Assembly: GCA_016184105.1 (NCBI GenBank) | Contig: JACPDI010000034.1 | Location: forward strand, 1 to 59,231 | Origin: Acidobacteriota bacterium | GTDB lineage: Bacteria; Acidobacteriota; Vicinamibacteria; Vicinamibacterales; 2-12-FULL-66-21 | Direction of reading: 5' to 3' | DNA: 59,231 bases | Program-made: the position numbers and the translations under genes | Part shown: positions 30,645 to 33,087 of the stretch, one piece after another | Layout: each line of letters starts with the position of its first letter | Numbering within the stretch: the first letter of the stretch is position 1 | Notes under the pieces: generated by a model | Databases searched by the model: none | Told to the model about the DNA's origin: nothing | What the model saw: only the letters and a program-made list of their open reading frames with translations

Positions 30645-30722
30645 TGGTCGGGATGGCGGGATTCGAACCCGCGACCCCCAGACCCCCAGTCTGGTGCGCT
30701 ATCCAGGCTGCGCTACATCCCG
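30645..30722 (-). tRNA. tRNA-Pro (anticodon GGG)
   Basis: 78 nt including an encoded CCA (plus-strand TGG at 30645-30647). Acceptor CGGGATG/CATCCCG pairs fully. The anticodon arm is CCAGA-CTGGGGG-TCTGG, giving anticodon GGG, and the T arm is GCGGG-TTCGAAT-CCCGC. Confidence 0.96.
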
Positions 30723-30784: not shown

Positions 30785-31312
30785 CTACCGCGCCTTGCGG
30801 TGCCTGGCCCGGCTGGCCCCCTTCGAGGCCTTCGCTTTCGCCGCGTGTTTGGCCGGACGCGGTCCGCGCGGCGCGTGCAACTCAAACGGACGCTGCGCCG
30901 CCCCTTCCGTCTCCAACATGTCCAGCAGCTCGCGCAGTCCCTGCCGCACGGCGCCGAGCTGTCGTCGCAGCGCGCCGTCGCGCTTGTCCGGCGAAGAGAC
31001 CCCGCCCGCCGCAGGCCGGGACGCCGCCGCGTCGGCCGCGAACTCTTCGATCGCCGGCAGCGGCGCGCGTTCCTCTTCCAGCCGCCGTCGCGCGCCCGCG
31101 AGCGTCAACCCTTCGACGAAGAGCAGATGCTTCAGCCGCAACACGCGATCGAGATCGTCACGACGATAGACGCGGCCGGACGATCCCGCGCGCGTCACGC
31201 CGAGATCGGGAAACTCCGCTTCCCACGAACGCAGCACGTACGGCTGGAGCTGCGCGATCTCGCAGACCTCGGGCGCTTTGAACAGGGACCTGTTCGGCAG
31301 TTCCGCGAGCAT
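30785..31312 (-). CDS. MerR-family transcriptional regulator
   Basis: 175 residues. The N-terminal winged helix is clear: LFKAPEVCEIAQLQPYVLRS, then SGRVYRRDDLDRVLRLKHLL and FVEGLTLAGARRRL. A short coiled region follows and the tail is Lys/Arg/Ala-rich. There are no Cys residues of the metal-sensing type near the C-terminus. MerR proteins of this sort often lie beside ihfA in other phyla; here the HU/IHF gene is next to der, divergent. It may bind the dyad at 32744-32771, which is a guess. The gene starts 29 nt after der and is probably co-transcribed with it. Confidence 0.82.
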   Translation of the reverse strand: MLAELPNRSLFKAPEVCEIAQLQPYVLRSWEAEFPDLGVTRAGSSGRVYRRDDLDRVLRLKHLLFVEGLTLAGARRRLEEERAPLPAIEEFAADAAASRPAAGGVSSPDKRDGALRRQLGAVRQGLRELLDMLETEGAAQRPFELHAPRGPRPAKHAAKAKASKGASRARHRKAR

Positions 31313-31341: not shown

Positions 31342-32721
31342 TCAAGACCTGACCCCCCGTTGACGCTTCCGCACCTGGATCCGGATCGGGGTGCCGATCA
31401 GGCCGAAGGACTCTCGCAACCGGTTGCTGAGGAACCGCTCGTACGAGAAATGGAACTCGGTCGCGACGTTCGTGAAGAACACGAACGTCGGCGGATTCAC
31501 CGCCGTTTGCGCCGCGTAAAGGATGCGGACTTCCCTCTTGCCCGGGCTTGCAGGCGGGTGCGAGGCGGTCACGGCCTGGATGAAACGGTTCAGCTCTCCC
31601 GTCGGAATCCGGCGCGCGCGTGCCACGGCGACCTTGTCCACCATCTCGAGCAGTTTCGGCGTCCGCTCGCCGGTGAGCGCCGAGATGTGCAGCAGCGGCG
31701 CATACTCCAGGAATTTCAACTGGAACCGCAGCTTGTCGTCGAACTCCTTCGCGTAATCCTGCCCGCGGCCTTTCATCAGATCCCACTTGTTGACGACGAT
31801 GACCACGCCGCTGCCCGCCTTCTCCACCTCTCCCGCGATGGCGCCGTCCTGGTCGGTCGCGCCCTCTGTCGCGTCGATCACCAGCAGCGCCACGTCGGCC
31901 CGCTCGATCGCGCGTCTCGCGACGAGCACGCTCACCGATTCCATCTGCCCGGCCCGCGCGACGCGTCCCGGCCGGCGGATGCCCGCGGTATCGACCAGCC
32001 GGAACGTCCGCCGGTGCCATCGCAGCACGGCATCGACGGCATCGCGGGTGGTACCCGGCATGTCGCTCACCATCGCGCGCTCCTCGCGCAGCAGGCGGTT
32101 CAGGAGCGATGACTTGCCCACGTTCGGCCGTCCCACGATGGCCACGGCGAGTTCCGCGTCCTGGCTGGCGTGGGCATCCAGCTCCGTCGGCGGCGTCGAC
32201 GGCACCGGCCGCCTGGCTGGCAGCCGCTTCAGGACCTCGTCGAGTAAATCGCCTATTCCGATACCGTGCTCGGCCGCAATCTCGAGCACCGGCTCGAACC
32301 CGTACTGGTAGAACTCCACGGAACGGCCGTGCGCCCGGCGGTCGTCCGCCTTGTTCACGGCGACGATGACGGGCTTGCCTGCCTCGTGAAGCGCTTGCGC
32401 GATTTCCGCATCGCCAGGGACCGGCCCTTCGCGTCCGTCGACGATGAACACGACGACGTCCGCACCTTTGATGGCCTTGCGTCCGTGCACCACCACCAGC
32501 TCATGCAGGGGATCTTCGCTCTCGCCGAACATCCCGCCGGTATCCACGAGCGAGAACGCGGTTCCCTGCCATTCAGCCGGCTGCACGTTGATGTCGCGCG
32601 TCGTCCCGGCAACGGCCGTGACGATCGCGCGGCGTGTTTCGGTGATGCGGTTGAACAGCGTGGACTTGCCGACGTTCGGCCTGCCGACCAGCACAACCGC
32701 GGGAATGCGCCTCACCGCCAT
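31342..32721 (-). CDS. der: Ribosome-assembly GTPase Der
   Basis: Der (EngA) is an essential GTPase needed for 50S subunit assembly. 459 residues with two tandem G domains: first GRPNVGKSTLFNRI, DTGG and NKAD; second GRPNVGKSSLLNRLL, DTAGIRR and NKWD. A C-terminal KH-like domain follows. The ATG at 32721 has GGAG nine bases upstream; the TTG at 32736 overlaps that site. It is divergent from the HU/IHF gene, sharing the dyad at 32744-32771. Confidence 0.96.
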   Translation of the reverse strand: MAVRRIPAVVLVGRPNVGKSTLFNRITETRRAIVTAVAGTTRDINVQPAEWQGTAFSLVDTGGMFGESEDPLHELVVVHGRKAIKGADVVVFIVDGREGPVPGDAEIAQALHEAGKPVIVAVNKADDRRAHGRSVEFYQYGFEPVLEIAAEHGIGIGDLLDEVLKRLPARRPVPSTPPTELDAHASQDAELAVAIVGRPNVGKSSLLNRLLREERAMVSDMPGTTRDAVDAVLRWHRRTFRLVDTAGIRRPGRVARAGQMESVSVLVARRAIERADVALLVIDATEGATDQDGAIAGEVEKAGSGVVIVVNKWDLMKGRGQDYAKEFDDKLRFQLKFLEYAPLLHISALTGERTPKLLEMVDKVAVARARRIPTGELNRFIQAVTASHPPASPGKREVRILYAAQTAVNPPTFVFFTNVATEFHFSYERFLSNRLRESFGLIGTPIRIQVRKRQRGVRS

Positions 32722-32743: not shown

Positions 32744-32771
32744 ACTTACACGCGGACTTGACAGTGTAAGT
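32744..32771. promoter_or_regulatory. Perfect 8+8 bp dyad over the HU/IHF -35 box
   Basis: ACTTACAC (32744-32751) and GTGTAAGT (32764-32771) are perfect inverted repeats separated by 12 nt. The spacer includes the TTGACA -35 box (32758-32763). A protein bound here would block the HU/IHF promoter and could affect der on the other strand. The binding protein is unknown; HU/IHF itself or the nearby MerR protein are candidates. Confidence 0.6.
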
Positions 32772-32786
32772 GACTGACTTTATGCT
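32758..32786 (+). promoter_or_regulatory. Sigma-70 promoter of the HU/IHF gene
   Basis: Perfect -35 TTGACA (32758-32763), 17-nt spacer and -10 TATGCT (32781-32786). The start codon is 28 nt downstream of the -10 box and has an AGGAG ribosome-binding site (32801-32805). Confidence 0.85.
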
Positions 32787-32814
32787 ATTTATCACTTCCG
32801 AGGAGCGGCTAAGC

Positions 32815-33087
32815 ATGATCAAGGTCGACATCGTCAACGAGGTGTCGCGCGTGGCCGACATCACCAAAGTGAAGGCTGAGGTCGCCGTGGACGCCGTGTT
32901 CGATGCGATGCGGCTCTCGATGCAGCGCGGCGAGCGGATCGAGCTGCGCGGCTTCGGCGTGTTCCAGGTGAAGCCCCGCAAGCGAGGCATCGGCCGCAAC
33001 CCGCGAACGGGCAAGGAAGTCCGCATCCCGCCCGGGCGGACCATCCGCTTCAAACCGGGCAAGGAACTCCAGAATATCGGCGGTTAG
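32815..33087 (+). CDS. HU/IHF-family nucleoid protein
   Basis: 90 residues. N-terminus MIKVDIVNEVSRVADITKVK; the DNA-bending arm carries GRNPRTGKEVRIPPGRTIRF, with the conserved NP(R/K)TG of this family, preceded by FGVFQVKPRKRG. It bends DNA and organises the nucleoid; IHF-alpha versus HU cannot be separated by eye. I chose ATG 32815, with AGGAG nine bases upstream, over an upstream ATG at 32770 that would lie within the promoter. The M50 protease gene starts 9 nt after its stop. Confidence 0.93.
   Translation: MIKVDIVNEVSRVADITKVKAEVAVDAVFDAMRLSMQRGERIELRGFGVFQVKPRKRGIGRNPRTGKEVRIPPGRTIRFKPGKELQNIGG

Follow-up and report, generated by a model that had tools for sequence, protein, structure and literature searches.

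The HU locus and its inverted repeat

The window, which is the whole 59,231-nucleotide stretch of DNA analysed, contains a gene for a HU/IHF-type DNABII protein (hereafter HU), the divergent gene der and a gene for a MerR-family protein (merR) placed after der (Table 1). The best NCBIfam models for the HU/IHF-type protein are IHF beta and IHF alpha, both below their cut-offs. The der gene is divergent from HU in 57/57 loci (own included). Within the window's family of 11 loci, the two start codons are 82-93 bp apart in all but one, where the distance is 112 bp. Since merR starts 29 bp after the der stop codon, both genes probably belong to one transcript here. A tRNA-Pro (GGG) gene is found after merR, at 30645-30722 of the window; in beta-proteobacteria a similar order of merR and tRNA-Pro occurs beside ihfA. 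Upstream of HU, TTGACA and TATGCT (32781-32786) are separated by 17 bp as a -35 and -10 pair. No other promoter-like match occurs between 30500 and 34500, where 0.4 are expected.

Table 1. Genes, promoter and half-sites around the HU start in the window.
Feature	Position	Strand	Remarks
MerR-family protein, 175 aa, candidate binder	30785..31312	-	PF13411 MerR_1
der (EngA), ribosome-assembly GTPase	31342..32721	-	PF01926 MMR_HSR1 and PF14714 KH
Dyad (L plus M)	32744..32771	.	Sequence, genome search, comparison, shuffles
Half-site L, outer	32744..32749	-	ACTTAC on + (GTAAGT on -); centre about -46
HU promoter TTGACA-17-TATGCT	32758..32786	+	Sigma-70-like; hexamers conserved in relatives
Half-site M, GTAAGT	32766..32771	+	Just 3' of -35; TAA core 54/55
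Half-site R, ATTTAT	32787..32792	-	Directly 3' of -10; TTA core 54/55
Half-site A, CTAAGC, outer	32809..32814	+	Abuts HU start codon; centre about +18
HU/IHF-type DNABII protein, 90 aa, target gene	32815..33087	+	PF00216 E 3e-26

The preliminary description had reported a perfect 8-bp inverted repeat with a 12-bp spacer, ACTTACAC-N12-GTGTAAGT, enclosing the -35 element of HU. The repeat is indeed located at 32744-32771 and TTGACA (32758-32763) lies inside it. The search for further copies, which had been proposed as a check, returned this single place in the own genome (4.24 Mb, both strands searched). The repeat had also been considered unlikely to arise by chance, which is borne out only in part. 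Perfect 8-bp dyads with spacers of 0-20 number 117 in the window, where 20 shuffles average 84.7; those with a spacer of 12 number 7 versus 4.6. On the other hand, only 257 of 20,000 shuffles of the 92 bp of intergenic stretch (approximately 1.3%) contain such a dyad, and its cores are conserved. The dyad is thus unremarkable for the window and only mildly notable for the intergenic stretch. Taken alone it carries little weight, and the strong evidence comes from comparison between genomes.

Conservation in relatives was expected of the dyad. As written, the 8+8 form is private to the own genome among the loci read and the outer letters of its left arm are not conserved, whereas its 6-bp cores recur at the same spacing (the left in 27 and the right in 54 of 55 loci). 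On the condition set in the preliminary description, the 8+8 dyad in its written form would thus be refuted, and it was rejected as the functional unit, conservation being limited to the 6-bp cores.

A four-half-site array at the HU promoter

Phylogenetic footprinting of 57 loci, another of the proposed checks, places both dyad cores within a conserved array at the HU promoter. The array consists of four half-sites [GC]TAA[GC][TC] that alternate in orientation (L<- M-> R<- A->), spaced by 21, 22 and 21 bp and centred at about -46, -25, -3 and +18 when the first T of TTGACA is counted as -35. Owing to the alternating orientation, L-M and R-A are equal head-to-head pairs. Site R of the window has a less usual form, the commonest among the relatives being AGTTAC.

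HU was searched in 60 genomes (own included) and its upstream region was read for 57, since G006, G020 and G041 contain only distant HU relatives. The core counts cover the 55 loci with a promoter within 220 bp; of the other two, G031 shows none and G017 has its promoter about 440 bp upstream. The only exceptions to the M core TAA and the R core TTA are L031 and L055, respectively. In a sequence logo, the core letters of M and R show much the same conservation as the promoter hexamers; the logo comprises 46 loci whose spacer is 17 bp and whose -10 is good (one without flanks), with the seven 18-bp promoters, L003 and L026 left out.

The spacings, taken from the start of one TTA/TAA core to the start of the next, are rigid. 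L-M is 21 bp in the 27/27 loci having L and R-A is 21 bp in the 24/24 having A. Of the 53 loci counted for M-R, 49 have a distance of 22 bp and 4 have 23 bp (L031 and L055 lack one of the cores; an additional TAA near M in L007 and L008 was left uncounted). The seven promoters with an 18-bp spacer between -35 and -10 all keep M-R at 22 bp. In four loci of family f4, genus g12 (L045, L048, L049 and L052), the inner half-sites have drifted jointly to CTAAAC/TCTTAG, with the 22-bp spacing kept; HU is also altered at several positions in these genomes.

The outer sites change together. Both are present in 24 loci, both absent in 28, L alone occurs in 3 and A alone in none (55 loci; Fisher p 1.2e-12, kinship ignored). 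When G017 is added by hand reading, the numbers become 25, 28, 3 and 0 (56 loci). On a 56-tip tree of der and HU proteins, with G031 left out (parsimony, midpoint root, several weak nodes), six branches change both L and A, one changes only L and two only A (hypergeometric p 9e-8). Furthermore, 20/20 acidobacterial matches of a pattern requiring A and not L carry the L core, these species overlapping the first comparison set. In G017 (L109/L224), L and M form a 14-bp perfect inverted repeat around a 4-bp loop, ACACTTACGCTGTC-TCTT-GACAGCGTAAGTGT, and no array read was more perfect than this one.

In the searches made, the array is confined to HU with few exceptions. The pattern SGTAAGTN9TATNNTNNTTA gives 20 matches in the 60 genomes, 20/20 at HU (10 checked as loci, the rest by coordinates against the HU search), and its reversed control none. 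A scan of 396 genomes of the phylum for promoter, M and R is positive in 31/42 genomes of the order, 0/4 of other orders of the class and 1/350 elsewhere, with 5 matches for the reversed control. The outlier, G383, has no HU nearby, and the own genome contains a second match (C57:3550) where HU is also absent; both are taken as chance. Three half-sites (M-R-A or the mirror R-M-L, promoter letters not required) were then searched in 149 genomes of the order, of which 34 are positive, 34/34 at HU, against 2 control matches; G032, G042 and G448 match through the mirror reading L-M-R only. In 84,980 species, a pattern of M, -10, R and A gives 22 stretches. Twenty come from records titled Acidobacteria or Acidobacteriaceae, with 'gp6' in five cases, and each of these lies at HU with der next to it; the other two, from Saprospiraceae and Pseudanabaena, have neither gene there.

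Pairs of half-sites separated by N14-N18 occur in 40 genomes at 20 places at HU and 7 elsewhere, this loose pattern being no measure of enrichment (293 reversed-control matches, summed). The seven use N16 (2), N17 (3) and N18 (2), with no preference for N16, and the two inspected (G009 C86 and G022 C165) share no gene. The same site was accordingly not found at further genes as a multi-target regulon would have it. By these searches, the array is conserved in most examined members of the order, at least as its inner pair, with the outer sites in about half of the loci. Judging by the 'gp6' titles and the kinship labels, the order would be Vicinamibacterales.

Candidate binders and alternative readings

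The array is probably a control site on the HU promoter. Its architecture, spacing, conservation and restriction to HU in the searches made indicate, with high confidence, a dedicated single-target operator for the HU gene.

The preliminary description named the adjacent MerR protein as a candidate, and it is the leading one. That this protein binds the array and represses HU is a tentative proposal, to which we give less than an even chance. The regulator gene is close to the site. The protein has a MerR winged-helix domain (PF13411, 45.5 bits versus a cut-off of 21.6). The best PDB matches of its model (m2fd148233e47, mean pLDDT 79.6) are GlnR-DNA 4r4e and CarA 2jml; the fold matches to GlnR, CarA and MtaN reach a best E of 2.8e-3, none being <=0.001, and CarA and GlnR are among its closest solved relatives, judged by sequence and fold. 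A relative at E<=0.001 is present in 57/60 genomes (own included), 54 of them above 80 bits, and in 20/20 further genomes chosen from the class and the phylum. The joint loss of MerR and HU in G041 and G020 was dismissed as support, since no der orthologue was found in either genome and the region is therefore absent or unassembled.

Residue 29 of MerR, placed in a model helix (24-33), is S/T/G/A in 54/54 rows of the order, while in the outgroup it is Y/F in 18/20 rows and A and T in the other two. Gene order differs as well. Four same-class genomes have an IHF-like gene between der and merR (L134-L136, L138, L144-L147). In 16 other genomes of the phylum, a HU/IHF gene stands beside merR in five loci (L154, L156, L158, L159 and L162), and der adjoins merR without a HU/IHF gene in two. 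Within the order, no IHF-like gene was seen in the der-merR gaps read, that of the window included. The differences in residue 29, gene order and array all contrast one order with the rest and consequently count as one observation. G031 has no array, yet carries S at residue 29, and four same-class genomes possess MerR, der and divergent HU without the array. The four genomes with CTAAAC/TCTTAG half-sites show no matching change in the MerR recognition helix. In a locus of another genome (L216, G058), the near-invariant recognition-helix residues R28 and E31 are replaced by N and A, and the R half-site has the odd form GCTTAA.

In classical MerR promoters, the dyad lies inside a 19-20 bp spacer between -35 and -10. 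Here the best spacer is 17 or 18 bp in the 55 loci (16-19 tried) and the half-sites flank the -10, unlike that layout; the half-site distance of 21 bp also differs from the classical arrangement. No array was seen by eye in the 13 regions read upstream of a merR separated from der, which argues against general autoregulation by MerR. Twelve of these 13 regions (L071, L073, L075-L078, L081, L083, L085, L089, L095 and L097) have TATACT shortly before the start, nine with TGN directly before it, which looks like an extended -10 with a short or missing leader.

The divergence of the array was compared with that of both proteins. In a rank test, the array score correlates with HU identity (0.61) and not with the identity of the MerR helix-turn-helix (rho 0.09, p 0.51); this test uses a fixed register, which penalises family f11. 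The register is free in the later partial Mantel test given der distance, which yields 0.145 for MerR (p 0.043) and 0.432 for HU (p 0.0005) with 52 genomes. Without f4/g12 (48 genomes) the values are 0.236 (p 0.002) and 0.260 (p 0.005), and without f4/g12 and f11 (43 genomes) they are 0.268 and 0.297 (both p 0.0025). The mirror-tree comparison does not separate MerR from HU: the two values are close once f4/g12 is removed, and on the full set they lean towards HU.

Alternatively, the protein on the operator could be a regulator whose gene lies elsewhere in the genome, such as a ribbon-helix-helix tetramer or another dimer with half-sites spaced by two helical turns; this reading is only slightly less likely than MerR. 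A one-target regulator need not be linked to its target, and the 6-N16-6 geometry of L-M and R-A is that of the NikR operator, given as GTATGA-N16-TCATAC in the available part of PMC7055735. That operator has another arm sequence and a single pair, and no NikR operator was recognised in the array. The NikR_C domain is present in just 2/40 genomes (own included), and a single target in the genomes searched makes, in our judgement, an unlinked dedicated regulator less usual. NikR itself was rejected as the binder owing to its rarity and to the arm sequence.

Autoregulation by HU, in which the abundant DNABII dimer would bind the phased sites and shut its own promoter, is unlikely. It agrees with the single target and with the array divergence that tracks HU beyond der, both on the full set and without f4/g12; the HU of G031, where the array was not found, is moreover the most diverged full-length one (73%). 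On the other hand, the variable HU positions are 7-40, 70, 84 and 88-90, presumably mostly outside the DNA-binding arm, and HU usually binds DNA with little sequence preference. In addition, three same-class HU proteins are 84-86% identical and a fourth 57%, and the array was seen in none of the four genomes.

Two readings dispense with a regulator. GTAAGT/AGTTAC might be intrinsic promoter elements, in the spacer and the discriminator, that tune RNA polymerase, which would suit the anchoring of M and R beside the -35 and the -10. This is improbable: the combination is rare at other promoters (every match in the 60 genomes is at HU and two lie elsewhere in the phylum scan), M keeps its phase to R, and loses that to the -35, in promoters with an 18-bp spacer, and L and A change together outside the core promoter. 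A function of the outer sites in RNA, as translation signals near both start codons, is very improbable. It would account for the position of A, which abuts or almost abuts the HU start codon in most loci having it, and for L being close to der. In G017, however, A is also 21 bp from R, with the HU start codon some 390 bp farther downstream; the whole array, A included, lies about 440 bp upstream of HU, which speaks against a start-codon role and led to the rejection of this function. Site L, moreover, is outside the HU transcript, yet co-varies with A, and its spacing to the der start is not fixed. That chance produced the dyad and the remainder is ordinary promoter conservation is scarcely credible, since the core half-sites are conserved and rigidly spaced in relatives, even if such dyads are frequent in the window and the perfect form is private.

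Proposed mechanism and known systems

The half-sites are about two helical turns apart, which places them on the same side of the helix. Binding would most likely be cooperative, by a pair of dimers or a single tetramer, and the protein would then mask the -35 and the -10 together with the start site; in the window the start codon would be covered as well. M-R is the core, being retained where L and A are lost. As the sites extend under RNA polymerase from about -46 to +18, its exclusion is the simplest effect and HU transcription would most likely be repressed in this way. The operator, placed between HU and der, could also set HU and the der-merR operon jointly, and a feedback loop would close in the genomes having merR in the der operon.

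The preliminary description went further and suggested a repressor linking HU and der. The comparison gives good support to a regulatory site for HU and extends it to four half-sites; control of der is only suggestive. A TANNNT- or TGNNNT-like hexamer often stands shortly before the der ATG in the window's family; it is not kept in the wider set, where no conserved der -10 was found. The predicted operator perhaps also touches the divergent der-merR operon. Binding of a protein to the array, repression, MerR as the protein and a response of der are inferences from these sequence patterns.

Nucleoid proteins are usually described as being under global signals. A one-gene operator with four strictly phased sites would instead be a dedicated HU homeostat, and the array would provide a way to test what sets the HU level. 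It would also offer a first testable target for the MerR proteins beside IHF-like genes in parts of the phylum, for which no assigned job was found in the portions of the literature available. The broadest reading is a private single-target complex of about 64 bp, with four phased half-sites and built by MerR or HU, that would act in one order of Acidobacteria as a gauge tying chromosome packaging to ribosome assembly (der) through the shared operator. Taken as a whole, this is speculative and unlikely.

In enterobacteria the IHF/HU genes are autoregulated, a precedent for a DNABII gene being controlled at its promoter. The present case differs by its four phased sites, and no IHF-type consensus was seen by eye at the array. 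A four-site array of this kind was not found described in the literature consulted, including the available parts of PMC10561277, PMC9662190, PMC8156234 and PMC7055735. The MerR-type protein MlrA of E. coli acts at csgD on a widely spaced inverted repeat, AAAATTGTACA-N12-TGTACAATTTT (PMC9662190, available in part). The N12 spacer is shared with the dyad, whereas the MlrA operator has 11-bp arms with TGTACA and a single pair, in contrast to the four [GC]TAA[GC][TC] sites over the promoter. CarA and CarH, from Myxococcus and Thermus, are repressors with a MerR-type winged helix that act as cooperating dimers or a tetramer over a promoter; two cooperating CarA dimers occupy about 55 bp of DNA spanning the -35 (PMC8156234, available in part). 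CarH uses 11-bp direct repeats and has a B12 domain, whereas here the half-sites are inverted and 21-22 bp apart and the 175-aa protein has a Pfam match to MerR_1 alone.
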